Positions 13,696-57,500 of a stretch of 64,000 bases of DNA are shown here, in pieces (the first letter of the stretch is position 1; every line of letters starts with the position of its first letter). The notes beneath the pieces are model-generated. The model was not told the origin of the DNA. It made no database searches and was given only the letters and a program-made list of their open reading frames with translations. The translations under genes and the position numbers were made by a program. The stretch is from contig JAQGEQ010000177.1 of the NCBI GenBank assembly GCA_034620365.1, positions 62,001 to 126,000 on the forward strand, read 5' to 3'. The stretch is from Pegea sp. RAD2-039 (lineage: Eukaryota > Chordata > Thaliacea > Salpida > Salpidae).

Positions 13696-14490
13696 TTTAT
13701 TTATTTATTCCAATAAATGCGAAGGAGGGTACCTGAAAAGAGCACCTCTCGCTAACACACATTTGCACAAATAACATCTATTTAGCCAAAAATATAGAAA
13801 GTAAAAGATGTAACACATGGTATCTCGATAAGCACTCAAATCATATAACAGTGAACACAAAGATCTTTGTACAGAGATTTGATGGAAGGGTCTGTTTTAG
13901 TTTGTTTGTATAGGAGGTTTTTTAAATGTTGTACATTCTTTAAACTTTTGGGCAAATGTGGTTTCTTGTTGGCTCTAAAGAAAGGTATGAATTTTTCGAT
14001 TGACTCTTTAACGATGTTAGTAAATCTTGAGTAAATAGTATTGATGTCTTCGGAAGAGTTGAAAACATAAATCCAGTCAACATCTGATAGAAACTTGTTA
14101 ATACCATTATAATTTCCACAGTAAAAATTCCTTTTGCTTGAACTTTTAACGTTCATAAAAAAGTTTGATGGAGCTTGAATTCAATCATATTGTGATCGCA
14201 TGTCAAAGCAAAAGGTTTTTTTGATCAACGCACATAATGTTCTCGGGTTTTGCTGTGATAAGAAGATCCAAAGTATTACCACTAACTTGGGTCGGAAAAG
14301 TAACCATCTGAGATAGATTATTGGCATTGAGGAAGCTTACAAAGGTATGGTTTAGAAAGGGTGAATTAGTATTATTGCTATCCAAGTTAAACAATTTTCC
14401 ACTAAATGCTAAATTCGGGTTATTCCAATCAATTTTACCAAAATTAAAATCCCCCAAAATATATAACTCAGGACAAACAACACTCTTCAG
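13696..14490 (-). mobile_element. LINE (non-LTR retrotransposon) remnant with most of its RT deleted
   Basis: On the minus strand 14470-14203 encodes an APE-type endonuclease end: LYILGDFNFGKIDW, then a PTQVSGNTLDLL box of the kind seen in CR1/Jockey-type elements. A frame break follows at an A-rich run near 14215; the next frame continues with a CDHNMIEF box. The segment to 13836 resembles the endonuclease-RT linker (FLSDVDWIYVF, EDINTIYSRF, EKFIPFF). The sequence then passes directly to a 3' end with AATAAATAAATAAATG at 13696-13716. No reverse-transcriptase core is present, so this is an inactive, internally deleted copy. Confidence 0.75.
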
Positions 14491-15375
14491 AGCCTTTTAA
14501 CACATTTAAGACACATTTTTCAGACACATTTAAGTGTGTGAATCATTGAAATTCATAATAACTCTTATTTCTAAAATGTAAGCAGTGAAATAAAATTTGA
14601 TTTTGTTTTGTTGTAGTTATTTACAAAAAAATATCCTAATAACTTAAAATAAGAAAATAAGGGTAAACAAAACCCAAAATAAATGTCATTAAAGTAACAA
14701 GTGTTTTTTGAGTGTAATAAATTTTTGTAAAGCAATTTTTTAACTCTATGAAAATATGGAATTAACATTTTGATGAGATGGAAATATCTTATGGTATTAT
14801 TAATTAACTCAAAGATCGGTTTTTGTCGATGTCACCGAAATGATAAATTTTGATTTTTGCAAACTGTTTAAATTATACTCAATTTTGATAATTGTTAAAA
14901 ATTAATTGTATTTTTAAGTTAGTTTTACATTAGTTGCTATTATTTGACATCAAAAGTTAATAACATTAATAAAAACCCATTTTCGAGCTGTTTATAAATG
15001 CAATCTTCACTGTACATGATATTTGACCATTAAGTTGCAATAGTATTTTTGATATAATTTATTTAAATTTGAATGAAGAAAAAATGTTGAAATCAAATTT
15101 GTTTTTTCTGTGTAATGTTTTCAAACTTTCTAAACAAGTTAGTTCTTTTTATCAAATTATTTTAAACTTACTTTTTGATATACTTTTGAACACAAAAAGA
15201 TTATATTAGAACATTGTTTAAAATTTGTTAAATACATTTATTATAATCTATTATAGTTATAAAAAAAATTGTAGATAAAAATAGAATTTATATAATATTA
15301 ACATCTTTAATATTTATATTTTAGAATTTTTGTCATTTATAAAAATCATTAACTTTTTCTTGTTTGACTGTTGGT
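14491..15375. other. Intergenic AT-rich DNA
   Basis: A short direct repeat (ACACATTTAAG, twice) sits at 14500-14540 next to the LINE remnant. A 65-codon minus-strand open frame (14571-14768) looks like chance. A missing first exon of the next gene could lie here. Confidence 0.4.
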
Positions 15376-32040: not shown

Positions 32041-32686
32041 TACAAGCTTGAAGATTTTGAAACTTAGTAAATGTTATCTTTCTAAAAATCTTCAACAAAC
32101 TTTGTAGATGTCGCAGAGAATTGACTTACTTTCTAAAACCTCTTATTTTCTATTTTTTTTTTGTTTCACTTTTACTATCGAAATAAAATCATTTCTTTTC
32201 AGCCTTCGAAAAATTTGGATTTATTTTTAAATCGATTATTTAGATGGTAAAAGTTTTAGAATAATTTTCAATTTGTTTTAAATATTGAATTTTTTAAAAT
32301 ATTTTTTCGAATCAGTTTTTTTAGTTATCAGAAGTTACCTTAGTTTTACTTGAAAGCAAGAAGATAAATTTTTCCATCTTTTAAAAGTTGTTATTTTTGT
32401 TTTAAGTTTCAGAAACTTAATTAAAAAGAAAACATTTTTGGTAATGATAAGCTTAATTAATTCATTTATTTTACAAAATAAAAAAGTAAATAAGAAAACA
32501 AATATTTATAAGAATTTATTTATATTTGAAGTTATTTTGATGAATTGTAGTCAAACTAATCAACAAATCAAATTCAGTAACAACTCTGAAATACCATCTA
32601 TTTTACAGAACAAATTTTACAAAATGAAAAATCTAATCAATTAAAAACGCCAAAATAGTCATTCAATTACGTCATCAACAACTTCA

Positions 32687-35600
32687 ATGTCCGCCAGAAC
32701 AAGAAAGAAGAAGCTCCGCTCTCAACCAGAGCAAGACTCCCCTAAAACAGGGGCTCCTCAAAACCTCGCGATGATTCCATTCGACAATTTCCATTTCCAT
32801 GACGACGACAAACACTGCAACGATTTTCAACGCGACGTCAAAATAAACGATGGACTTGATGACGTCATGTCTAGCTGTGTGATGTCATCAAGTTCGGGTG
32901 TAAGTACGGATGAGGGACTGAAGCCTTCTTCGATTAGCGTCTTCAGCGCGATGTCAACTCTACACGGTCTTAGCCACATTTTCGCTGTCCATCAGTCCAG
33001 GCTTCGATGCTTCTCGTGGGCGACCGCGTTTGCTGTTAGCTTCGCCTTGCTGCTTTATCAGGTGAGTTGCTAAATGCTTTCTGATTGGTTGATAAATGGT
33101 TGCTGACTGGTTATTAGATGGCTACTGATTGGTTGTTAGATGGTTGCTGATTAGTTGTTAGATGTTTACTGATTGGTTGTTAGATGGTTGCTGTTTGGTT
33201 GTCATATGGCTGCTGATTGGTTGTTAGATGGTTGCTGATTAGTTGTTAGATGTTTACTGATTGGTTGTTAGATGGCTACTGATTGGTTGATAAATGGTTA
33301 CTGACTGGTTATTAGATGGTTGCTCATTTGTTGATCAATGGTTGTTGATTGGTTGTTAGATGGTTACTGAATGGTTATTAGATGATTGCTGATTATTACT
33401 AAATGGTTGCTGATTGGTTGTTAGATGGTTGCTGATTGGTTAGTAGATGGTTGGTGATTGTTAGTAAATGGTTGCTGATTGGTTGATTGATAGTTGCTGA
33501 TTGGTTGTTAGATGGTTACTGATTGGATGTTAGATGGTTGCTGATTGGTTGATAGATGGTTACTGATTGGTTGTTAGATGATTGCTGATTATTACTAAAT
33601 GGTTGCTGATTGGTTGATTGATGTTTAATGATTAGTTGTTTGATGGTTTGTGATTGTTAGTAAATGGTAGCTGATTGGTTGATTAATGTTTGCTGATTGG
33701 TTGTTAAATGGTTGCTGATTGGTTAATAGATGGTTACTGACTTGTTGTTAAATGGTTGCTGATTGGATGTTAGATGGTTGCTGATTGGTTGATATACGGT
33801 TGCTGATTGGTTGTTAGATGGTTACTGATTGGTTGTTAGAGGGTTGCTGATTGGGTGTTGGATGGTTACTGATTGGTTGTTAGATGGTTGCTGATTGATT
33901 TTTAGATGATTGCTGATTGATTGTTAGATGGTTGCTAATTGGGTGTTAGATGGTTGCTGATTGGCTGATTAATGGTTGCTGATTGGTTGATAGATAGTTG
34001 CTGATTGATTGTTAGATGGTTGCTGATTGGGTGTTAGATGGTTGCTGATTGGTTGTTAGATGGTTGCTGATTGGTTGTCAGATGGTTTCTGATTGGTTTT
34101 TGATAGTTGCTGATTGATTTGCACATGGCTTGCAACTAGCTGATGATTGTTAATTAGATTTTTATTTATAATTTTGTTATGTTTTTAAAGTAGATAAAAA
34201 TTAATATTTATTTTTGAAAACTTTCTTAGATTATTGCAAAAAAACTAATGTAGTCAAGCAAGCAATTCATCGCTTATAAATTGATAAACGTTTTTTTCAG
34301 TTTGTTGGAATTGTTTTGATTTAAACCAAACTGTTAAAACTAATATTTTATTTATTAATAATTTGTTTATTAATAAATTTTTAATAAAAAATAATTCTAA
34401 AAGTTTTGATAAAGAATAAAATATTTAATTTAGTTCTAAAAAAAGCAATTAAATCTAAATGACTTTTTATTAAATTAATATTTCGAAAACCTGTTAACAG
34501 ACAAAAAAAAATATTTTTCTATTAAGTTAACATTTGTTCAACTAAATATTTACAAGCTGGCTTAAATGATGATAATTTTAACTTATTATGTGTATTAAAT
34601 TTTATCAAAATTCATTAAAAAAAATTAATGATTAGTTCTCAAAACGTTTAAATAAAATTGTTTAAATTATAAAAGTAAAATATTTTAATTTATTCCTAAA
34701 AAATTAATTACTTTGATTTTACTTCATGTAAAACTTGTAATTTATATGATTATGGTTACAAATTTCAAAATAATCAAAACTAAATTATGATTTCAATAAT
34801 TAGAAAATAATTTTATTGATTAAAAAAAAGAAATGTTATTTGAAGTTTGTATTTTTCATTTATAATAAATTAGTAATAAAATATTATTTTGTAATGATCA
34901 CAAATAATAGTAATGATTACGAATTCACAAATTGAGAGTTCTCTAATTATTCATCAGTTAATTGACTTCAATTCAAACTTTGTATTAATTGACATCAACA
35001 TTGAAAACGGTTTCAAATTTTGATTAAAAAAATTAAATATCTGAAATTATAACCTGATAATAAACAATATTTCTGATTCAAAATTACATTTTTTAAGTTA
35101 TTTAATAAAAAGTAAAAATATATTCCTCATTTTATTAACTTCTTTGTTTTTGGGTATTTTCGCACCTCATCTTTTAAATGGCAAAATAAACAATCATACT
35201 AGTTACAAATCTATTTACAAATATTATCAATAAATATCTGATTCTATTCACATATTATGAATAGAAATTGAAAGTTTAAATTGATAAGCCGACTACTTTC
35301 AATTTTCTTCAGAGTTCAAACCGGGTGTCGTATTATTTGACTTATCCTCACATCACAAGACTAGATGAAGTCAATGCCGGCAACCTTGATTTTCCTGCAG
35401 TCACTATTTGCAACTTAAATGAGTTCCAGTTCAATAAAATTACAAAAACCGATATGTACCATGCAGGTAAATATCATATAACTGACAAATTCATTTGTAC
35501 TTTTTTAATTATGGTGAATTAAACCGCTAAATTGTTTGAAACTTTTAGCATTTAACTAGAATACTATAATTTGATTTCATTATTAGAATTAGAAAGAATA

Positions 35601-38600
35601 ATTTAAACAAATTAGTAGACAAACTGAAGCTGAGGGTTTACAGTCGATTTATATTAAATCAAATCTTTTTTACAAATAATTTGTAAATAATCGTAAGATC
35701 AATAATAATAACGTAAGCTTGAAAATTATTTCTTTAATATCTGAAATAAATAAATTAAATAAACTTAGAAAATAAATAGATTAAATAAAATAATCTTAAA
35801 ATTGTCTAATAAATAAAAATTTTCATTAAGTAAAGCGATGTTAAAAAATAAATTAAAAACTTTATTAGTAGAATAATCGCTTTAATATATGAACTTTGTT
35901 ATGATGTCAATAAATTATTAAAAGAAGCTTAAGGTTAAAAACATATTAATTTGCAAATTTGTATGAGGTCTTTTGATGAAATTATTTTATGTTTGTTTAA
36001 CTTCTAAAACTTCGGTTTGAAAATATTTGGTCAGATAATAATCTAAATTAAGATTAAAAGTACTTCATTTCAAAATGTTTATTTAATGAAAAAGATTTTT
36101 ATTTAAAATTTTAGTAAATAATCTGTTTTTAATTAACTAATAATCAAAATAATGGAACGACAAAAACTTATATTTAGAAAAAAGTTTTTCCAAAAACGAC
36201 TTTTTGATGATAGCGATGAATTACAGGTGGACTTCTTGGATTTTTAGACGAAAATAATAAGTTGAAGCATCCTGGGTTTTTAGGATCAAAGAACGACTCA
36301 AGATCAAAAGATCTTTTAGCAAAAGTCACTGAGCTAGCCAACTTCAAGTTTGTTGATTTGATTTTTAAATAATTTTTATAATTTCTTATATTTCCTAAGC
36401 TTTTTAGTATTTCTTACGTAAAGGTTTCTGAAATTTAATTTATGTGTTACTAAATCGCCTTTGAAAAAGCTGATTACCCAACTGCGCTATCATATTTCAC
36501 GTAAATGGAAATTTTGGGGTTTCGAACAGTTGGCTTTAAACTATTTCCTGGTTCGAGAATGTGGGGTAAAAATATCCACATAAGATGATTAAAATATTTT
36601 TTAATGAAGTCTTTTTAAGAAAAATAATTATTTAAAAGATCAAATCAAGACTTCTAGTTTGTTCATTTCAACTTAAATACTTTTAGTGTTTTGTTTATTT
36701 TTAGAAACTTATTTTAGCAGTTCTCATTTCGAAATATTTTATTTGTGATTAAGTAACAATTATTCTAAGAAATTGAAAAGTTTCTCCAGTGTAAAAGATG
36801 ACTAGTCTCAGAATATTGAATAAAGTTAATAAACTATTTTAATATCCATAAAAATCTTTTTAATGAGAAAATCTGTTTCAATTTTTTTGAGATTAATAAA
36901 ATATTTAAACATTTTTTATTACTTTAAACTTTTTTTCATAATTTTTGACCTAATATTAATCTTTTGACTTTTCAGTTATCTTTAAAATGTCTTAAATTAA
37001 TCAAGCTGTTTGGTTAATCTTTTAATGTGATTTGAGTAAAATATATAATTTCTATATTTCATAAAAATTGATTTTTTAAACATAATATTTTCTGCATAAA
37101 CTTTATTTTTATTCAATTTTCGTATAAATTAAAATATAAAATTATTAACTATTTTACTGATAAATAAATCTAATATAAATTCAAACAAATTTATAAATTA
37201 CTTATAATATTCTTTCTTTAATGTTTCCAGTAAATCTTGATGAACATTTTTGTAACAATTTTGATTTTTATCAACTTTTAGAAATGAAGCAATTCCAAAA
37301 GACTTTAATATGAGAGAGTTTTACAACAGAACTGGTCATGACCTTAATCTAATGGTCCGCAGCTGCAAATATCGTGGACAGTCTTGTAAAGACGCTGATA
37401 ACGGTTGGAAAGAGGTAGAACAAGTTTATTTATGGCATCATTGATGTTGTCACTTTCGTTGTTGTTAAATTTGTTGTTTTTGAAATGTTCAACTAAAATG
37501 GCTTTTTAGACGTTTTGAAATATTTTGATTAATTTTGATAAAAATTTTATATAAAAAAAGTTCTAATTTTAGTTTTAATTGTCACAAGCAATCAGCAAAA
37601 ATTAAAAGTTTAATTTTGAATTATTATTATTTATCAACTGATGGATACGTTTTCTAATTTAAGTAATTTTGAAGTTGATTAAAAATATCTAAAACAAAAG
37701 TTATGCTTTAAACTTACTAGTTCTTTACTGACAGCAAGCGGTGAAAATAACAGCTTTCATATTTTTTCATTTCTTTGTAAAAATTGCAGCAAAATAAGAA
37801 ACACTCATTTTAGACGTTTCTGGTGAAATATTAAAATCTTGAAATAAAAAAAACTAAATTAATGAACTAATTAAATAAGTTTTAAAAGAATTAAAATTTT
37901 ATAAAAGTTGTTTGAAAGAATTTATATAATTAACAGAAAAGTTTAAATTTTATAAGTTTTTATTATAAATCGCCTTCCTAATATTTTATTATGTTAATTA
38001 AATGATTTAATTATTTATCTTAACTTGGAATATAGTTTTAGTGTAAATATTCTGAAGTTCAAATTTTTATTTAATTATTGAACTTTAAGTTAATCAAATA
38101 CAAATTAAATTAGTTAATAAAATAAGTTAATAAAAATACCTTTACCTCTTTTTTTGGTTAACATAAAATTTTCAAAAATCGTTGAACTAAATAAGCAAAA
38201 TTTATAAATACAATTTTATAAGTCTTACTCTACGATTATTCCTAATCTTGTAAGATTCGAACTTTCAGTATGAAAGAACTTTTGAAAATTTAGAATGTCA
38301 GGTATTTCATTACCCATCAAATAATTTGATGATTTTAAAACTTTTAAAGTTATGAAAAACTGTTCAATGTTTTTAAAACATGATTTTAAATAATTCTATC
38401 AAACTTGCTTTACTTGTAGGAGAATTCTTAACAATTTTTGTATTTGATATCTATGACATTAATGAAATCTTCTTCTTCCTGTCTTGCTCTGAGTCTTTTA
38501 AACATTCTAAGCTCCCTAATATACTTAAGGTCAAGTAGCCTTAGATATCCTTTGAGGTTCTTACAAATTGTATGAACCCTTTTTAACTGGTTTGAACTGC

Positions 38601-41600
38601 TTGAAAAACTATCTGGTCCCTTTAAATCATTCTGGGGTCCCAGAAAATAGGTTTAGGCTTTTTAACTTGATCTGAATTGCTTGATGAGTCTTTGAAGATA
38701 GTTTAAGATGATGAACTTATTTCAAAATTACTTTGAGCTTTTCAAAAACCTAAATAATTAATTAGTGACAAAATCAATGTTCGAATTAACAGATCAATTT
38801 TTGCTTCAGTTTTTGTAAAGATATTTTTTGAGAGCTTAAAGTTGATTGTAAATCTTTCAATTTGTTTTACGGTTTTCTCAGTTTAGAATATTTAAAAAAA
38901 TATTTATTAATTGAATAAAATTCAGAGTTTTGAAGAACTTTCGGTAAGAAAGTGACAAATTACTTTAATATTAAAAATTGTAAAATAAGCAATTATTCTA
39001 TAAATTTTTAGTTTCTTAATTTTGAAATGATCTTTGAAAGTTAAGTTATTTTCAACTTAATGGCAGATGAGTTTATTTAACTGCTGCTGAAAATTAGAAA
39101 TTTTGACTAAAATGTAAAAAGAATCCTTTCGCTAGAGGCCGCCGTTTGTCTTAAATTTTTAGTTATAATAAATCTTGATTTTCATGTATTTTTTATTAAA
39201 TCTTTTAAAAATAGAATTAGATTTAAATTAACTAATAGTCAACAAGATTGGTTTAAAAAATATTTAGCTTTATTAAAATTTTTTATTTGAATAAGTTTTA
39301 ACATTTTTTAGGGAAAAGTTTTGACATTTTCTGTATCATTAAAAAAGTAGAAAATAAAATTCATTCCGAAATAATTATAATTCAAATTAATTTTTTTTTA
39401 TAATTTCATTCAAAATGTTCTTAAGCCATAAAACTCTCGTCCAGTAAAAATCCGTTGTTTTTATTAATTGTATAAAAAGTTTATCCTCTGTGAAAAGGTT
39501 TTGTTTTCTTCTGGTAGTTTGTTGATTGATTCTAGAAAGGCTTCTAAATATGCCTGAAAAATTGTTGGAAAAAACATTATTAATGTCTATAGAAGAGAAA
39601 ATGAACAAGTCATTAGTTCTCTTATCCATCTTTCTACTTCTTACAATTAAATATTTATGAGATCTTTTTGATGTCTCCAACTACAATTTTAAATTTATTA
39701 TTAATTTTTCTGATAAAACTTTTATAATTTAAATTGTTTAATTTTTTTTTGATTTAATTTATTTAGAATCTTTTTTTTGTAACTTTATACATTTTATTGC
39801 AAAAGTTTTATCTTTGTTTTGTTAAATTCAATTAGTTGACAAAATTCAACTTAACATTTTTGTTTTTTTTTATATAATTTACAATTTAGTTTAAAAAAAA
39901 ACATTTTAGAAGTTTATAAATGAAATAAAATATAAAAATAAAAGATTAATTTGAATACTTTTAACTTGAAGAAATTAATGAAATAAAAAACTATTTTATG
40001 AAACAATTTATTATTTCTTAACAACATTATATTGTATAAATATTTTTTTCTACAAAATTCATATATTCATTAAGTAATAAGAACATTTTTCAAGTTCATT
40101 GATTTCTTTATCTTTTTTTCCTTTGGAGGGTTTAAAAAAAAACTTTTTCAATTTTGATCGATAGATTTCAAATTCACATATTAAATCATTTCTATATATT
40201 TGAAAATCATCTTTGCGTCTTCAAATTTTACATCAATCAACATTTTACAGTAAAATTATTTATTTTCAATCTAAATACAAATAATAAAGTTTGGCTAAAA
40301 CATTTTGCAATATTTAAAGTTTTTTAATCTATTTAAAAAAATACAAAATCTATTTTGATTAAATTCTTTTATTTATTTTATTTTCAAAGTGAAAATGTTT
40401 ATTAATTTTATAACTTATATTTTCAATAACTCAATTAGTCTACACATTTTTTTAAAGAAATTAATTTTTTTGAGTAGCTAGAAAAACGTTCAATAAAATA
40501 ATTCTAAAATCAGAATAATGTTTAAACCAAAATATTTGTGTTTACAAATTGCTAATGAATAGTAAAAACAACAGTTTAAAGTTAAAAAAAACCTAAAAAA
40601 TAATACAATTTTTAGAGAAAGTTATTAGCCAACTGAATATACATTAAAAATTATGTATAAAAATCATGTTTAGTAGAAATAAAAGATTTTTTAACAAATA
40701 GTTCACGATGCATGTAATTTTAACACGAAAATCAGAATTACTAAAAGTTAGGGTATTTTAGGAAATTTATGTTTTAACATGAAAATTGTTTAAATATGAA
40801 ATAGTGAAGATAAATAAGACATCTAATACATTTAAATATAACTATCAATGCAAGTTGAATTTTACTATTTTGAAATTATTGAAAAAATCAAATTACACAA
40901 GTCTATAATTTTCTTGCAATTTAAGAAATAATTTGAAGTTTTACATATTTAAAAACAAATTAGATATTTTTAAAACCCGTTAAAGGGTCTTAAAAGGATT
41001 TTTTACATATTAAAGAAGAAATGTTTTAACTAATTCAGCTAAAACTGCCTTAATTACTTCTAACCATTTAGCTAAGTATCTTGTGTATCTCTTTTGCAAA
41101 CAATAAATTAAACAATTTGTAAAAATAGAATTTAGTTTCAAATTAACCTGTAAACGTTGGTGAGCGCTATACAATTTCAAAATTTGTAAAAATATCTAAA
41201 AAGTTGCAGTTTTTACCGCAAACTGCTTTTCAAAGTCCAAAAGATCTCGTTAAAATGCGACTTGATGAGGTATCAAAAAGAAAAAAGCTAAAACTAAGTG
41301 AGAAAGAAAATTTGGATCGATACAACACTAGGACAAAATCAGCTGTGCTCCTCTACAAGCGAACAGTTGCTGTTTTTTAGCCTTTCATTTGTTTATAAGA
41401 TTTTCTAGCTTAAACAGAAAAGTTTTATGATTTCTTAGAAAAGTTTTTGAAATATTTTGAAAATAATAGAAAGTAATGAACAAAGTTCAGATTATTAAGA
41501 AGATCTTTTGAAATGAGTCGCCAGAAAATTATAGCTCGAAACGAAATGGCTTCTAATGAAAATGGCTTCAGAAAAAGTTATTATAAAATTGAAGAACGGA

Positions 41601-44600
41601 GTGATGAGAATTCCGAAGCAGTTTGCTGGAAGCAGTGTTCTTGTGAACTTAGATTACCTAGAAACGGCTGTGACGTTTTAATACCTGGAAATGCAACTGA
41701 TTCATATGTTTCTTCTACTGATTACGTCACTCAGGTATGATGTCATTCATAAATTAGATTTTCTTTTAACTAGATTAAAATTTGTAGTTTGTTCAAGTTT
41801 CCGAATAAAAGAAAATGTTATTTAAATTTTTATCGATTAGAAAGTAGTATTTTTTGAATGATGAATTTTGAATAATTTATTCTAATTGTGGCTAATAGGA
41901 AGAACCAAAACCTTCTTCTGTTTCTTATTTTGCTGCAAATACAACTTTTCATGGAATCAGTCACATAGGGGCTCCAGAAACATCTTTTTTTAGAAGAACT
42001 ATTTGGGCTTTGGTCTTCATCATTTCTTTTGGATTTCTCTGTTATCATGTAGGTGATGAACAATTTAGTGTTTCCAAACTAACTTTTGCCAAATTTCAAA
42101 AAGTCCATTAGTTGATTGAATGAAAATTTTCTGAAAATATTAAATAGATAGAACAAAAAAAATCAATATTTAGTGCAATAAGTGATATTTAAAAATTTGA
42201 ATCTTTTTGTTTTAATTGAGACTCTAGAAAGTTTAAAAACATTTTGAGTCAATTCTAATCGATAAATTTTTATAAACAATAGTAAGTTTTTCAACGATTC
42301 AAATTTTGTAACTATACACCTGAAATACTTAAAATATCAAGTTAGAAATATTTTGGCATCAAAATACTAAATTAAATTGAACAATTTTAGATAAAAAAGT
42401 TCACCAAAAAGAAAATATTTCGAAAACATTTTTATATGCAAATAGCTTTTCAACGATAGTTACTTAGCAAGTCACAAAACCTTTGTTACTTACCTTAAAA
42501 ATATCCTAAATCAAATTTTTTGAATTTAATCAAATTGCTTACAATTTTTTTACTGTTTCTATCATATTTAGGCGCAAGACCGTTATCGGTATTATATGTC
42601 GTCACCACATGTCACTAAGTTAGATGAGCTAGATACAACCGAGCTCGACTTTCCAGCTGTCACTATTTGCAATATTAACCGATTTCGATTCAGTCAAATC
42701 GATACAGACGACTATTTCCATTTTGGAGTCAAATTTCTAAATGTTTTAGAAAGTGATTATAGTTTAAATCAAAATATGTGAGTTTTTATATTCGAGTCTA
42801 GTCTTTCTTAGATTATTTAAAAAAAATTAAATTTGTTGTGATTTATATTAGAAAAATAAGTAAAGTTTTATAAGATTTAAATTGTAAATAGTTAGAAACT
42901 ACAAGTTTAGACTTTAATAATTATTTAAATTATTGTTAATAAATTAAATTATTTATTTCAATTTTGTTTAAATTATTGAAATGAAAACAAAATTAAATTT
43001 TAAAAATTAATAATTTAAACTTCTAAAAGCTTTTTAATATCTGTATTTAAAATTTAGGGAATTTTAATTAAAAAAACAAATCATTTGTACTCAATAATTG
43101 AATTTTATTTTAATTTTTAATTCGACTTTTATCAAAACATAATCAAATATATGTTATAAAATTTCTATTTACAAATGTCATTTTAAATCATTATCACTTC
43201 CATTTAAAAATTAGAATTTGACTGAAATTTTTCTGACTTGAAAACTTATATAAAAATCCAATACTGGCTTCAACGGTGTTTTGTTTAAAGACATGAATCA
43301 TATCTCTTCCAAATGTTATTCTATTTTTTTCCAAAACTTTAACAATCTAGAAAATTTTATTTATTCAAACTTAAAGTTTATGCTCTCTTTCAATAGTTTG
43401 AAATATTAGCTTTTATTATAAATTAAATTATGTTAAAAAGCTTTTAAACGTTTTTACGTTAACTAATAATTAATAACTATTAACGTTATTTGACAATTAG
43501 CTTAAAAAAACAAAATCAATATTTATTATTCGAAATATTTAATACAACTTACTAATAAAGTTTTGTTGAATAAAGATATAATTTCAAACAGCTTAATGAA
43601 AATGAAATATCATATTAGGGAGATACCCTCAATTTTTCTTATTTTCTTACTTCTACGCCATTAATTGATATTTTAATTAAAACTTCATTTTAAAGTGTAA
43701 GTTCTCATTTACTTTTTTTTCTATTTTTAACTTTCAATTTAAAAACTTCAACCGCAAAAACTTTTTAATCAAACCAAATGAAATAAGATATTAAATTTAT
43801 ATTCTAGAAGTTGTGAGCTCGAAAAAGAGATTTTAAAAATAAATTGATGATTTTTTACAAAGATATTAAAATGCTACTTTCAGTAAGTAAACAAGAATTT
43901 TTAGATAAAACTTACGATTCTAAAACTCTTTTTGTTTTCATTTATAATCTTGTTAGTTTTCCAAAGTATTCCACAAATAAAGTTATTTGACTAAACCCAC
44001 CAAAAAATGTCATGTTCTGATTTATTTTCTGACAACTTTATTGCTTTGTCATTTATGGTTGCTGCTAGAAATTTTCTTATATTAAAATTCATATTTCTTA
44101 GTTTTCTAATTTAAAACAACCTTAGTAACTAACAAATATCTAGAAAGTCTGTCAATTTTTTTCAAAACTATTATTCTTGCAATGTAAATGTCATATAAAC
44201 TATATACTACTGGGTAGTGTTAGAAAGAAAATTTCAAATATTTTTTAGTAAATCTTTTTTGTACAAGCCTCTTATCAGTATTTATTAAATAAGTAGATTA
44301 TTTTAGTCAATAGGATTTTAGATCAACTGTTTAAGAAATTAAAAAAATATATCTTCCAAGTATTTTTCAAACTTAGGTTAGATGCAACTTTGCATTAGTA
44401 AACTTTTTTAGGTTATTTTAAATTTTTTATGAAAAATTATAGGTCGGGTTTCTAACCATAAAACTGAATTTAAAGATGCAGCAAGTATTTAAATATATTT
44501 TTCTGAGGGTTAGTTTTTCTTGATAAGTACACCAATAAGTTCAATAATGTGATTTTATAGATGATAAATAAGTTTTTAAATAAATTTAAACAAATAGTTA

Positions 44601-47600
44601 TCAAAATCTTAATTATTTTTTAGATATGGAATAATCAGTAATTCATTATTCGAAGTGATAAAAAACCGAACTGAACCAATTGTCAGTCAACGAAATGATT
44701 ACAAACCCTTTCGTCAAAAAGCCGATTTATTTGACTTCTATAACAGAACAGGGCATTTGATCACTGATATAATCAAAAGTTGTCGATATCAGAAGTTAAA
44801 TTGCATTGGCTCAAATTGGAAAAAATATTGGATTGTGGTTTGTGAGAAATCCACTTAAAACCGGCCTTTTTACGATCACTTTTTTAATTCGATGTGACAT
44901 CAAAAAACGAACGCAAAATTGAATTGCGTTGTAATCGTAAAAGCCATTTTAGTTGATAGTTACTGTTGCTAATGATAACATGCGTTGTGTACAAGTTCTG
45001 TTGGTGTTGCTATTGCATTTTCAGACTTTTATTCTACTTGAATAATTTTTTAGGTGTATACACGTTATGGAAAATGTTATACATTTAATAATATCGGTCC
45101 CAAATTTTTGAAAACTACAAAAGGAGGTATCGATAACGGACTTGAACTAGTTTTAGACTCACAACAAGATGAATATATGCCCGTCTGGAATGAAACCGGT
45201 TTGAGATGTTTTTTGACATTTTAATATCTGAAAAGATGTAGAAAAAATAATGATAATTTGCTGTAGCGTAAAATGTTCTAATCAGATATGAAAACAGAAA
45301 AAAATATTTATAAAATAAATACTTTACTGGAAAATTAATTTCAAGCATATTATGAGATTTAATTTATGATAATTTTTAAATATTCTGTAAATGCAGCTTT
45401 CATAAATATTTATATCAAATGTAATTCTTATCACAATTAGAAATTTATAAGATGTGAAAAAAACTTTTCGAAATAATAATTTCTGTTTTTTGATTTAAAA
45501 CATGGTTTTACATGCAATGTTTCATTTGATTTACAAAAATAATATTTTTATATATTTGTTACTAAAAAATGAATTTTTAGATGAGATTTCACTTGAAGCC
45601 GGGTTTAAAGTTCAAATACACACTCAAGCCGAACCAGCTTTCATCCACGAGCTAGGGTTTGGAATTTCTCCTGGATTTCAGACACTAGTAGCCACACAAG
45701 AACAAAGAGTAAAATTCAAAATAATTTCAAATGAAAATAAAACTTTTAAGCTTAAAGAAAATTTTTTGTTTTACATTTCAAAAATATGTTTCTGAAATAA
45801 TTTGTGATTATAAAGCAAAACAGAAGGTATAATATATAATAAGTTGATAGAAAACTAATTAATGATGAGATAGTAGTAACAAAACATTTAATTAAATTAT
45901 ATGTTTCCATATGTCTAAAAAAAGAAGCTATTGATACACACAACATTAACCAGTTACTATATCTTGAAAAATATTATATAAAAAGTCTTAGAAAATAGCA
46001 AAATTTAACTAAAATATTTTCTATTTAATTAAATGATGAATCATTTTCGTAAAAACTTTTTTTCCTCAGATTACATTTCTACCCAAGCCTTGGGGTAAAT
46101 GTAGGGACAATGTAAAAAAAGATGAAAAAATTTTTATGGATACTTACAGTATTTCTGGCTGTAGAATTGCTTGCGAAACAAAAGAAGTTTTTAAAGAATG
46201 CAACTGTATAATGGTTCATATGCCAAATAAAGGCAAACAATTTTAAAGACTACTTATTGCTTATCTTTATTTAAATCTTTTTATATAGAAGGCAAAAAAC
46301 AATTTTGTACTGCTGAAGAATATAAAGTTTGTGCCGATATTAAATTAGATAATCTAACATCTGGGAACTCTAGCGAATGTACATGTGAAACTCCTTGTGA
46401 AGTCATCAGGTAATTTATCATCATACATCCTCATTTGCAAATAAACTATTCTTCCTTAGTCGGAGTATTTTAGCTCCAAAGTCAAGATTTTTTTAAATAA
46501 ACAATTTCTGGTCAATTATATTGATATTTTATATATCAGGATAAAGTAAACATCATTTAAATAATTATATCTCATTTTTAATAATTGGATTAAACAATCA
46601 TAAAATATCTCAACTGATTATTTATATATTTCATTTATCTGCTTAAATTACTACAAATCACAAAAATTATTTTTATATAACATTATCATTCGATCAATTA
46701 ATGATGTAACAAGTGTATTTCTAAACTGTTCAAAATTCAATTTGAAATGATTTAGTTTCCAAATTAAAATTTACACATTATCTAAATCAGTTTTATTATT
46801 TTTTATAAATTCCAATGTGAGCTAAAACATTGTAGATTAGAAATTATAGAAGCTTCCAACTTATAAATTGCAGCACAGACACTCTCCTATCGATTTCGCT
46901 TAAGAATTTCGTCTGTTCAGAGTTGTTAACCAAAAAAAAGTTACAGCTAACACACAAAATAGTTTAATCAAAAACCCGAATTAAAACAAATCCAATTGAA
47001 AAGTGAAAAGTATATTTCAAAGTTATTCAAATATATCTAAATCTTTCAAGTATTTAAGTAAGATTGAACATGATGAGAACTAATGAAAGGTGTACATTAC
47101 AGTTTTAAAGACAATCCATCTATATGTAAAATGTCACGTGGTAAGTCGGTAATTATTTTAGCGTTTTCTCCGGAACAAACTGTCTGACGATGGCTTCAAA
47201 GTTTTAGCGTTTTGTCGGCACAAAACTCATAAATTATTCAGAGAACTAAAACTGGATGTTTTCTTTTAAAGGAGTTCTTACGCTTCTTACAGTTTGACAT
47301 AAAGATAAGGTTAATGTGCATTCATTTCATTTTTAACAAGCTCTTAGACTTTTCATAAGTGGCTGATGAGAATATTTTCGCTTATAGCTTCATCAGCAAA
47401 TTATAATTTTGAAAAATAGACAGGCTAAAAATTGATTAGAGTTTTCTAGTTCCCAAATGAGGTAGCTTCTAATTGTAATTTATATTGGGCACAAACTCAA
47501 AAACATTTTCAATGAATCATTCGTGGCAAGATATTTTTAGCTGAATGACAACAATAACAATTTTAGTCATTTTTTATGTGATTGAAAACTTTATTTTTGT

Positions 47601-49285
47601 TTGACATTAAATTAAAAGGAAATTTTGGCATGATCACTAGTTTGTAACATTTCAACAATTGCTCTCATTTGCAACAAAACCGTTTTTTGACTAAACAAAC
47701 TAAATTGAACTTTTAGCTACTAAAATAAAAAGATATTTGTATTTAAAACAAAACTTTTTTGCTTTAAGCAAAATATTGAAATAAAATTATAATAAATATT
47801 TTTGCAAATATACTCAACTAAAACTTTTTATTGTTTCAGATACAATTTAGAGATGTCGAATTTGAGGTTTCCCAGCGAGCAAGCAAGATCTTTTTTGGCT
47901 TATAAGTACAATGTCTCTGAAGATTACGTCAAGTAAGGGTTCTTCGTTTATACCTTTGAATAAAGTATTTAAGTAATAAAAACAACATAAAAGTGACCCA
48001 CTAAAAGGTTTCAATTAAAATGCATAAATTATTAATTTATTAAAATCTAAATTAGCTAATTAAAATTTATTATACATTTTCAGGCGCAATTTCTTGAAAT
48101 TAAACGTTTTTTTTGAAGCTCTAAACTATGAAACTATTGAGCAAAAAGTGGCTTATGAAGTTCCTGGCTTGTTTGGTTAGTTGATTTTAGCTTAATAGAA
48201 TTCGTTAAAAATAGTTACACTTAATTAACACATTACATTTATAAGTTACTACTAAAGATGTTTAAATACTTTGTAAAGTTATTACTTTAGATAAATCAAA
48301 CAATAAGATAAGATGAAAACAAACTATTTGTTCCACTACAGGTGATATAGGTGGTCAAATGGGACTGTTTATTGGTGCAAGTATCTTAACAATTCTAGAA
48401 TTATTTGATTACATCTATGAAGTGATTAAGGTAAAAAAAATTGCAAATTGACAAATATTTCAAGAAGATTTTTAGGAAAAAGTTCTCGGTGGTAAGCTAA
48501 GTCATAAAAAAGACAAAAAAGAAAATAAAACAAAACGCAACAAAGAAGAAACTCCAATCACTGAAGGTTTGTTTCTTACTTTTATATTGTTTAGAAATAA
48601 TCAAAAATGTTTAGATTTGAGTCTTTCAATACTTCCATCTGCTGGAAACTTTTCAAATTCCACTGCGCCTCCTGAATATCAATCAAAAAACTGTAGAAAC
48701 GCCAACAAACAACACACTATATACGGCACTCAAATGTTTGATGCACAACTGAATAAAAACCAACGGCAATCAACTCCTTCACAATATCAAGGAGTCGGCA
48801 ACTTTTTAATGACACTAAAAGAAGATGATGGGCACCCGAGACTTCCTGATTATCAAATGAGATACGATACAGATCAACAAGTTAACGGAGGCGGAAAGAT
48901 GACTCGCCGGAATATTCATGGAAGTATTATGCCCCGCGAGACTAGTATGAGTTACAATGATCTTTATCGAGTTCATGACTTTAGTGGAACAGCAACTTTG
49001 CCTCCAGATGTTGGGTGTAGTTTCACCTCCAGTCATCATTCGAGGCATAAGCATATGTCTCGAGGCTATACAGCACCATACCCTATCGGGGCCGCTAGCA
49101 GCAGTAGTTGTTTAAATTCTTTGACAAATCCTAGATCACAACAACACACAAGTGCTTTTTCTCCTAACGTTGTCTCATCTCTTGCTAACAACCAATCACA
49201 TACTAACCAATCAACATCGTTTATGACGGATTATGATCCAAACAATCCCGATTATCCCCTCCCTATGGAAACTGATATACATTAA
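32687..49285 (+). CDS. ASIC: Acid-sensing ion channel, isoform from the upstream 5' cassette (D form)
   Basis: Cassette exons 32687-33061, 35313-35466, 36227-36347 and 37282-37414 give 261 codons and end in phase 0. No separate downstream channel exons were found before the second cassette, so splicing to the shared exons from 45054 is inferred; the product would be about 791 residues. The cassette has a 100-residue cytoplasmic N-terminus, the [10 protein letters not shown] motif and the first membrane helix ([17 protein letters not shown]). The proximal extracellular domain follows: [62 protein letters not shown]. The His in [10 protein letters not shown] matches the proton-sensing His73 position of ASIC1a. 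ASICs are trimeric proton-gated sodium channels of the neuronal plasma membrane. The match to vertebrate ASIC1/2 is closer than to FMRFamide-gated relatives. Confidence 0.85.
33062..34135. repeat. Minisatellite, 22-bp unit, about 48 copies, in the first ASIC intron
   Basis: The unit GGTTGCTGATTGGTTGTTAGAT repeats with substitutions and a few 20-21 bp copies over about 1.06 kb. It begins at the donor splice site itself. Each copy holds ATTGG, the reverse complement of the CCAAT box. The intron continues to 35312 without repeats. Confidence 0.97.
34136..35312. other. Rest of first intron of the upstream ASIC cassette
   Basis: AT-rich intron with nothing further recognisable. The acceptor TTTTCTTCAG ends at 35312. 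Confidence 0.6.
38428..38655 (-). other. Unexplained coding-like stretch inside the ASIC locus, minus strand
   Basis: About 75 codons stay open on the minus strand to a TAA at 38428-38430, with strongly charged, coding-like composition ([18 protein letters not shown], then [12 protein letters not shown]). It lies between the two ASIC cassettes. Just upstream on that strand a related segment ([13 protein letters not shown]) occurs in another frame, suggesting a local duplication. It might be an exon of an antisense gene or an old pseudogene. No family is recognised. Confidence 0.35.
39387..39680 (-). other. Minus-strand open frame, possibly eroded LINE linker
   Basis: A 97-codon frame contains [18 protein letters not shown], which resembles the FNSSEDINTIYSRF segment of the LINE remnant at 13.8-14.2 kb. 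The similarity is short, and chance is possible. Confidence 0.25.
41210..41380 (+). other. Unexplained coding-like stretch upstream of the second ASIC cassette
   Basis: After an acceptor-like AAAAAGTTGCAG, 56 codons stay open to TAG, beginning [20 protein letters not shown] and ending [10 protein letters not shown]. It is less AT-rich than its surroundings. In phase 0 it could act as an alternative terminal exon after 37414, which would truncate the channel, or it may belong to a pseudogene. The family is unknown. Confidence 0.35.
41513..49285 (+). CDS. ASIC: Acid-sensing ion channel, isoform from the downstream 5' cassette (E form) plus shared exons
   Basis: Cassette exons 41513-41734, 41899-42048, 42572-42777 and 44624-44837 (264 codons, phase 0) are followed by shared exons 45054-45198, 45581-45708, 46070-46232, 46289-46409, 47840-47932, 48084-48175, 48342-48430, 48476-48566 and 48615-49285. 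The total is 794 residues. The cassette has [10 protein letters not shown], the first membrane helix ([20 protein letters not shown]), [12 protein letters not shown] and [18 protein letters not shown]. The shared part starts [13 protein letters not shown], then [19 protein letters not shown] and [20 protein letters not shown]. The Cys-rich [17 protein letters not shown] and [12 protein letters not shown] come next. It ends with the pore: [20 protein letters not shown] with the GAS filter, then [11 protein letters not shown] Ser/His-rich cytoplasmic tail of about 255 residues is several times longer than in vertebrate ASICs. One intron uses a GC donor. Confidence 0.92.
46233..46288 (+). other. 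GC-AG intron flanked by a direct repeat
   Basis: The channel frame requires the exon to end at AAAG (46232) with donor GCAAAC, not GT, and to resume at 46289. The intron start (AAAGGCAAACAATTTT) and the next exon start (GAAGGCAAAAAACAATTTT) are nearly identical. Confidence 0.7.
46410..47839. other. Long ASIC intron
   Basis: No coding is supported. It contains a hairpin with 8-bp perfect arms (GCTGATGA to TCATCAGC) at 47362-47397 and a locally duplicated TTTTAGCGTTTT motif at about 47157 and 47202. Confidence 0.5.
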
Positions 49286-54500: not shown

Positions 54501-57500
54501 TTATTTTTGTGGTTTCTTACTACAGGCAGCAATTTTTGCTAAACGTTTGAAAAGCTTTTTATCAAGACGTGAATAAATGATTGGATTAATTGCACTGTTA
54601 ACTGGTAAAAGTACAATCGAAGATATTGGAATAACAATTCCAGAAATATTATATCCGTTGTAACTCATGAAAGACATTATAAAAATTGGTAACCAGCAAA
54701 CCATATCTGTTACAATGATATAAAAAACTCTTCGTTTCATCTTTAGCATCTGATTGTCATTTGACTGATTATTGGATTTTTTCATACTTTGTCTTATGAA
54801 ATAATAGATTACAATGTAAGCAGAAGCAATAAAGAATAGCGCAAGAAAATTGACAACCATCATCGAAAAGGAAATAATGAAATGAGAAGATGAAATTCTT
54901 GTATAAAGATCTGGAAAACAAACAGGAGAAGAACTGTAATATCCAAAAGTTGATTTCACTTTGATATTTCTGTTTGGAAAACTAAGCTTACCTTCAGCCG
55001 AATTGAAGAACCAACTCTTTAAATTGGCAAGCTTCAGACTGCTTCTTGAAGTGTTTTTTAAATCAAACGAAAGATTTGAATACAAGAGAGGAATAATTTC
55101 AGCTCTCTTGTAAAATTTTTCAAGTCTTACAAAATTAAAAGACTGCGGTAAAAATGGATTTGGTTCGATATAAAATTTTTCAGTAAAAACAGTTTTGAAC
55201 CAAACAGGAATTAAAGCAAATAGAAGTGATAACAACCAAACAGTAGTTGAAACAAGAAAAAAGAGCTTAAAGCATAGTTGGTTTGATTTAAAAGGGTAAA
55301 TCACAGCATACAATCTCACACTTGTGATTATAACTAATATACTCACTGATGTTTGTGATGAAAGAACAGTTAGTACACCAATAACATTACAAGTGACGCT
55401 TGATCGCCATTCAAGATCATGATGACAGTATTCACCTGAAAACTGCTGTGATTTGATACCAAGTGTCAGTAGAACAAAACCCATTATAAGATCAGCAAAA
55501 GCAAGTTGACATAACAGTAAGGTGTTAATATAACTAAAAGAACTTTTATTTTGAATTTTTAGCAACTTTACTAGATGCCTTTGAAGCACTATCAGGTTAA
55601 CGAGGATTGTAATTATTGAACTAAACCAAATAAAGAGATGAAGATGTCCATTTTTGATCATTTCATATGGAGATGAAAAATCATCAGTAAAACATTCATC
55701 AGATCCATCAGAACAATCTTTTCGACCATCTAAATGTTTACTTGACTTAATAAAAGTCACATTACCTTTCCAACAATAGAAATGAGTTTTAGATGAAGAA
55801 TTCATTTCATCTGAGCCATCTGAACAATCTTTGTTTAAATCGCAACAATATTTTAAATCAATGCTTTGAGTGATGTTTGAATGACAATAAAACCTCCACG
55901 GACAAATGAATTTTTCCAAGTTGCAAAAATCACTAAATTTGCTAAAACTAGTATTTTGGCTACCTTCAATGTTCATCACGCTTTTTGATTGTTCAAAGTT
56001 GTAAAAACTGACTTTTTTTGCCTTACGTTTGTTTAGTAAATCAGTTGATACTTGAAAATCGGTAGAAATATTACCAAACGACTTCACAAAATAAGTTGAT
56101 TTGTTGTTAAATCGATGACAAGTTAGTGCCAAATCTTTGTCAAAAAACTGCTTATCAGTTGAACGAATAAACTGAACGTAGCTGGAAAAATATGGTTTAA
56201 GTATCTTAACGTTTTTATACTCTTCATAAGCATTCAAGCAATAAAAAAAACATTTATAGAGTCAATGTCTAGACAATCTGATGAACATTCATCATCTTTC
56301 AATGGACAATCAATGGTTCCATCACAAAATTTTCCTGAGGCCTCGGTACTATTTGTAGCATCATAAGACAAGCATTTATAATTAAGATCAACTGAAGACT
56401 CAATTGATGACTTATTTGAAGTTGGTCCAGTTAATAAGGAAAGAACTTTGTAATTACAAAACTTTTCATCAATTCCATCTTTCAAATCAACTACTTGATT
56501 ACAAATTTGATTGAAATTTAATTGATTTGAACGCTTACTAGAAGTTGTGATTGGATACATCATCTCACAAAGTGGTTCTATTTCATTGTTTCCACATGTA
56601 CATTCATCTGACATGTCTGGACAGTCGATGTAGTTGTCACAAATTTGTGATTTAGAAATTATAGTTTTGTTATCTAAACATCTTGAACAAACAAACTGAT
56701 TTTCTTCATTGTAACATCTATCTTCTTGTGAGAAACAAATGGAAATGTTGTTGTTGATATACTGTTGAGGAACAGTTCTTATTTCTTTTTCCAGACTATT
56801 TGATAATTGCGTGGTGTTACCCATTGATACAAGACATTTAAAGCCAAAAACCAGATCTGAACAAGACTTTATTCCTTTATTAGGAAAATGTTTTAGATTT
56901 TTGCTTCTTATAATCGGTGGGAATAATTTTACTTCACCTTCATGACAATGTATGCAGTTACTTAAGTTACAAAACTCAATTTCATCGCTTCCATCTTTGC
57001 AATTTAGTATTCCATCACAAACATAACTTGTTGGCAAGCATCTGCTTTTATCTAAACATTGAAATTCATCACTAAGACATTTACTAAATTTATAACTTTC
57101 ATCTTCTCCTGATTTACAATCTTCAATTGAATTTCCCACCCAAGATCTAGGTATACAACGTTTTTCATTACAACTGAATTCAGTTTCTTTATAACAACTG
57201 AACTGAGTTCTATTCTCATCTGAATTATCTAAACAATCACTGAAGTCATCATTAACACGATAGCGAGGAATACATCGATAATTATCTCTACAAGTAAACT
57301 CTGTTTTTTTGTAACAATTAAGGATTACCTTCTCATCACTTTTATCCTTACAATCTACTTTTCCATCCATCACTATTTCTCGTAAGATACATCGAGATGA
57401 TTTGTCGAGACATCGAAATTCTGTATCCTTGTGACATACATCACCTTTGTCAAAAATATTCTAAAAACAAAACACCAAATTAAATTTTTACTAAATCATC

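Follow-up and report, generated by a model that had tools for sequence, protein, structure and literature searches.

One ASIC gene with two complete 5' cassettes, predicted to be alternative, and a single common remainder in the tunicate Pegea sp. RAD2-039

The question raised by this locus is whether two complete sets of N-terminal exons, lying one behind the other ahead of a single set of channel exons, are parts of one acid-sensing ion channel (ASIC) gene, and how such a pair came about. The window analyzed is the whole stretch of 64,000 nucleotides from Pegea sp. RAD2-039 (contig JAQGEQ010000177.1, positions 62,001 to 126,000), and its GC content is 26.3%. A single ASIC gene was identified on the + strand at 32687-49285. 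It consists of two tandem four-exon 5' cassettes, cassette A at 32687-37414 (783 nucleotides) and cassette B at 41513-44837 (792 nucleotides), and of a nine-exon common part running from 45054 to the stop at 49285, downstream of both cassettes. The original prediction, made from the letters of the window, had given the same two cassette lengths and a phase 0 end for each cassette, and had put the start at 32687 and the stop at 49285, with 45054 for the shared exon; the exon model agreed on every one of these. A single ASIC gene in which a common remainder follows two complete 5' cassettes was confirmed, the alternative splicing of either cassette to the remainder being predicted from the exon structure.

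Cassettes A and B both finish in phase 0, right ahead of shared exon 45054. The joined frames, 791 amino acids for A plus the shared part and 794 for B plus the shared part, are open to the same stop. All eight cassette donors are GT and all six internal cassette acceptors are AG. In the shared part the nine acceptors are AG, and seven of the eight donors are GT, the remaining one being GC (46233). A second in-phase donor, GTGGTT, was noted by eye 3 nucleotides before the last donor of cassette B. An in-frame stop lies upstream of each start codon, at 32642 for A and at 41477 for B. The chance of a stop-free run was about 7e-11 for the 261 codons of A and about 5e-11 for the 264 codons of B under an independent-base model at 26.3% GC, values that serve as a guide only, the exon ends having been picked by eye to hold the frame.

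The joined proteins, cut after the second transmembrane helix (TM2), were matched to the Pfam family ASC (PF00858). The match covered positions 1-455 of 455 with an E value of 3e-108 for the A form and 5.1e-106 for the B form, and both forms are full-length ASC domains with two transmembrane helices. The best matches of the A form were an ASIC1 chain (E 1.2e-164) and ASIC2 (1.5e-161), and weaker matches were obtained with ASIC5 (1e-51), ENaC alpha (1.2e-43) and the best FaNaC (5.2e-32). Cassette B alone matched ASIC1 with an E value of 5.7e-38, ASIC5 with 4e-11 and ENaC alpha with 1.5e-10. The gene is nearer to ASIC1 and ASIC2 than to ASIC5, ENaC or FaNaC.

Residues were mapped by alignment to the ASIC1 chain 6ave_A, which we take to be chicken ASIC1 (cASIC1). 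Each cassette aligned with the cytosolic N-terminus, the His-Gly motif, the first transmembrane helix (TM1), the proximal palm and the finger, and the shared part with the thumb, the distal palm, TM2 with the GAS filter and a long cytosolic tail. The His-Gly motif and the GAS filter are retained. Fourteen of the 17 cASIC1 cysteines were found in both forms, the missing ones being 50, 62 and 276, and C94, C173 and C180 (chicken ASIC1 numbering) are retained in A as well as in B. H74, D79 and E80 of chicken ASIC1 are also present in both cassettes; H73 of mouse ASIC, the equivalent of H74, is reported to be critical for proton sensitivity (PMC6790391). E98 and R176 are present in A and are Arg and Gln, respectively, in B. 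D408 is replaced by Asn in the shared part and hence in both forms. The two predicted channels had originally been described as having one pore. TM2 and the GAS filter are indeed common to both, but each cassette encodes a TM1 and a His-Gly motif ahead of it. These two elements line the ASIC permeation path as well, and because they swap with the cassette the wording "one pore" is too strong.

Searches of the 105.7-Mb, 387-contig assembly were run exon by exon, and the best candidates were scored. When the shared protein part was used as query, all seven places at E<=1 fell within this gene, and so did all seven matches to PF00858 at E<=0.001 (nine candidates scored). Cassette B as query gave seven places. 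Six of them lie in this gene, three of the six where cassette A is, and the remaining one, which is on a different contig, had an E value of 0.033 and internal stops. Among the candidates scored, the shared-part and PF00858 searches showed no further pore exons, either between the cassettes, as had been predicted, or elsewhere in the assembly, and none that would serve the upstream cassette separately, a finding that would have spoken against a common remainder. A further hidden ASIC copy is unlikely.

The beginning of the shared part aligns with residue 187 of ASIC1 chain 7rnn_D, which has 528 residues, and with residue 188 of 6ave_A. We take this residue to be the junction of vertebrate ASIC1a/1b and ASIC2a/2b. 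In the genomic layout, two putatively alternative first parts would lead into one common part at the presumed vertebrate a/b junction residue. The proposed mirroring of the vertebrate pairs held for the genomic layout and, on this reading, for the joining residue.

The host genome was examined for tunicate marks. A 16-mer taken to be the Ciona spliced leader occurs in 272 exact copies in the genome, and its reversed control in none. At C4 the leader recurs every ~200 bases across ~7 kb and is followed by GTAAGT in the two units inspected. A cellulose synthase (CesA) core was found at C14:71914-72770 as two partial matches to the CelA model, under the whole-protein cut-off; this model also matches 11 of 14 control genomes. 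A GH6 domain at C14:74494-74718, on the same strand and 1.7 kb past the CesA core, was above its cut-off and was found in none of the 14 controls. Pfam matching of the C14 open frames confirmed both domains, with Cellulose_synt above its cut-off, and gave no match for the open frame between them. From their order and strand we infer that the CesA core and GH6 form one gene, and a CesA-GH6 fusion is tunicate-only according to PMC7464555. Because a CesA core is followed by GH6, and the spliced leader is present in exact copies, the genome is that of a tunicate, and the ASIC gene sits in it. The remark that such an organization has rarely been shown outside chordates does not apply here, since a tunicate is a chordate and belongs to the group with the named CiASICb. 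The layout is largely expected for a tunicate, a b form of ASIC being already on record there.

The exon structure, the open frames, the intron position common to both cassettes, the one detectable genome copy and the tunicate identity are shown by the sequence. The reading that we consider likely is a single tunicate ASIC gene with two promoters, whose tandem-duplicated cassettes would be swapped into one shared part. Its promoters, splicing, trimers and function are predicted. One promoter would lie before cassette A and the other before cassette B, inside the long intron from A to the shared part, and two pre-mRNAs would be made. The last donor of the transcribed cassette would then be joined to the acceptor just ahead of 45054, with the B exons skipped in the A form. 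The resulting subunits would have the thumb, distal palm, TM2 and tail in common, and would be distinguished by their cytosolic N-terminus, TM1, proximal palm and finger. Homo- and heterotrimers of differing pH sensitivity would probably be formed. The pair itself most likely derives from a tandem duplication of a multi-exon 5' unit in the tunicate line, parallel to vertebrates. In Ciona a CiASICb enhancer drives a reporter (PMC12338642), which would suit a separate promoter for one of the forms.

The origin of the pair was studied with one nine-row tree and four variants, two of these with fewer rows. A and B were grouped in all five trees (bootstrap 79-90; Shimodaira-Hasegawa-like approximate likelihood ratio test, SH-aLRT, 86.7-89.8), and all five tests of B with ASIC1b rejected that pairing (p 0.0037-0.0369). 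A and B also have one phase-0 intron in common, in the same alignment column after TM1. The favoured origin, with real doubt, would be a tandem duplication of the 5' cassette within tunicates that paralleled the rise of the a/b pairs in vertebrates. Several points weigh against the duplicated, two-promoter gene. All evidence is from genomic DNA. Only one of the three inner introns of each cassette coincides between A and B. Support for A+B was below the starred level in all trees and never decisive; B with ASIC4 was not rejected (four of four tests, p 0.062-0.095), nor was A with ASIC1a/2a (five of five, p 0.073-0.21). Of the nine tree rows, five (ASIC1b, 2a, 2b, 3 and 4) were typed in and not drawn from database records, and the sole one checked, ASIC2a, was identical to chain 6l6p_A over 173 aligned residues. 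Branches are long for cassette B and two of the typed-in rows, and an AT-rich genome plus long branches could have pulled A and B together. The non-rejected placements also suit a different history, in which the tunicate-vertebrate ancestor already had A-like and B-like cassettes, giving rise to ASIC1a/1b, ASIC2a/2b and the tunicate a/b forms. The joining residue is taken to be the same in vertebrates, and short motifs common to B and the typed-in ASIC4 and ASIC1b rows were seen by eye. Identity to the ASIC1a and ASIC2a rows is 46-47% for cassette A and just 33-37% for B, and A and B are 39% identical. We nevertheless regard an ancient pair as unlikely. It is at odds with the grouping of A and B in every tree, with the rejection of B plus 1b and with a single test of B+{1b,2b,4} (p 0.035). 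B is no nearer to the typed-in ASIC1b row (36%) than to ASIC1a (36-37%), and the post-TM1 intron common to A and B is not known from vertebrate ASIC first exons. An ancient arrangement, which the original prediction had offered, is not favoured, and in the alignment to a and b forms that it had called for, A was nearer than B to the a-forms, and B no nearer to 1b than to ASIC1a.

The same exons would also fit one promoter with alternative splicing of a long pre-mRNA, or spliced-leader trans-splicing that gives one of the forms its 5' end. A separate start codon in each cassette suits either version, and the presumed Ciona spliced leader is present in the genome, which suits the latter. We hold this alternative to be unlikely, a CiASICb enhancer being in use as a reporter driver in Ciona (PMC12338642). 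That activity of a b-form enhancer also speaks against one cassette being a decaying, unused duplicate, as do the 261 and 264 stop-free codons, the GT/AG splice sites and the conserved cysteines in both cassettes. B has a longer branch than A and is without cASIC1 E98 and R176, but such decay is very improbable. Beyond the duplicated gene with two promoters, the intron phases leave two hybrids in frame, one with A exon 1 followed by B exon 3, the other with A exons 1-3 followed by B exon 4. Tunicates and vertebrates might have built alternative 5' cassettes independently at the same junction, and with such hybrids one tunicate gene might give up to four channels, an unlikely reading that is put forward as conjecture. 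If it were true, the hybrid of A exon 1 and B exon 3 would combine A's TM1 with B's ectodomain.

Exons of the ASIC gene, in window coordinates
Feature	Coordinates	Strand	Description
Cassette A exon 1	32687..33061	+	start codon, ~85 amino acids ahead of ASC domain, His-Gly motif, TM1; phase 0 end
Cassette A exon 2	35313..35466	+	post-TM1 palm, His/Asp corresponding to cASIC1 H74, D79
Cassette A exon 3	36227..36347	+	finger, by alignment
Cassette A exon 4	37282..37414	+	finger end, by alignment; donor GTAGAA, phase 0
Cassette B exon 1	41513..41734	+	start codon, cytosolic N-terminus; phase 0
Cassette B exon 2	41899..42048	+	His-Gly motif and TM1; phase 0 end, same alignment column as A exon 1
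Cassette B exon 3	42572..42777	+	post-TM1 palm with His/Asp, finger start
Cassette B exon 4	44624..44837	+	finger; donor GTTTGT, phase 0
Shared exon 1	45054..45198	+	joining point for cassettes A and B
Shared exon 2	45581..45708	+	
Shared exon 3	46070..46232	+	GC donor at 46233
Shared exon 4	46289..46409	+	
Shared exon 5	47840..47932	+	
Shared exon 6	48084..48175	+	
Shared exon 7	48342..48430	+	TM2 with GAS filter
Shared exon 8	48476..48566	+	cytosolic tail start
Shared exon 9	48615..49285	+	long cytosolic tail, stop

Some further features were observed within the gene. Intron 1 of cassette A holds a tandem repeat of 22 bases in 48 copies (33066-34116), directly past the first donor. Just 5' of cassette B, at 41147-41380 on the + strand, a 77-amino-acid open frame was seen, the last 57 codons of which look coding-like by eye. 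It had no Pfam match and no further copy in the genome search, and is possibly the last exon of a nested gene. The cytosolic tail encoded at 48476-49285 extends more than 230 amino acids past TM2; that of chicken ASIC1 is shorter.

Elsewhere in the window, long open frames at 54501-57460 on the - strand encode low-density lipoprotein (LDL)-receptor class A repeats and then a rhodopsin-type receptor, and presumably resemble relaxin-family/LGR receptors. Two open frames at 13836-14496, also on the - strand, resemble an endonuclease stretch of a long interspersed nuclear element (LINE). One of them, 14206-14496, matched Exo_endo_phos_2 with an E value of 9.8e-6 and 25.9 bits, just below the cut-off of 27.4, and the other had no relevant Pfam match. 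Five matches to the spliced leader at <=3 mismatches were counted in the window, the shuffle mean being 7.0; a leader-like 16-mer at 45031 (2 mismatches), just ahead of the shared exon, was dismissed as chance level. In the genome, exact leaders are dispersed at the 5' ends of LINE-like elements (e.g. L028, L034, L035, L036, L037 and L040). Seventeen leader rows were inspected, L028 and L043 being one place and close pairs having been chosen deliberately. Eight lead into one Cys-rich open frame (METMVDTN...), and in five a pair of exact leaders is spaced 16-34 bases, while in others the second leader is one letter short. Acceptor-like letters, TTTCAG/GTTATAG, stand between the paired leaders. 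L035 and L036 have a Pfam reverse transcriptase downstream of the leader; for the Cys-rich frame in L040 no Pfam match was obtained. These observations suggest that RNA of a LINE-like element was trans-spliced and then re-inserted with its leader, repeatedly. Two 18S copies were also seen, one of 1791 bases (L013, G000:C27:3500-6500) and one of 1201 bases (L012, G000:C1:6129500-6132500); because both span the model ends 1-1831, the L012 copy is internally shortened or a variant. A search for COX1 gave no match.

Here the exons of a tunicate ASIC gene that has two 5' cassettes, predicted to be alternative, are laid out in full, for a member of the vertebrates' sister group. Once genes from lamprey and further tunicates are added, inheritance of the a/b swap can be tested against its repeated evolution at a single splice site. 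A and B would also make a natural chimera pair for the N-terminal residues that set proton sensitivity. Vertebrate ASIC1a/1b and ASIC2a/2b resemble the gene described here in carrying an alternative N-terminal third on a common remainder, joined at what we take to be the same residue. The vertebrate first parts are taken to be single exons, whereas each cassette here has four, and cassette B was not paired with vertebrate 1b in the trees. In vertebrates, six subunits come from four ASIC genes, because ASIC1 and ASIC2 have splice variants (PMC6790391). No exon layout was found in passages of PMC7360831, and the words splice and isoform are absent from the main text of PMC9949801. Closer to the present gene is the ASIC of Ciona, likewise a tunicate gene with a named b form. 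CiASICa and CiASICb, which we take to be two splice forms of one Ciona gene, as the original prediction also has it for a tunicate, were reportedly described by Coric et al. in 2008, a paper cited in PMC7324659 and PMC12338642. The Ciona ASIC is reported to be proton-insensitive (PMC6790391). The same source reports the ASIC of Oikopleura dioica, likewise a tunicate ASIC, to be proton-sensitive.

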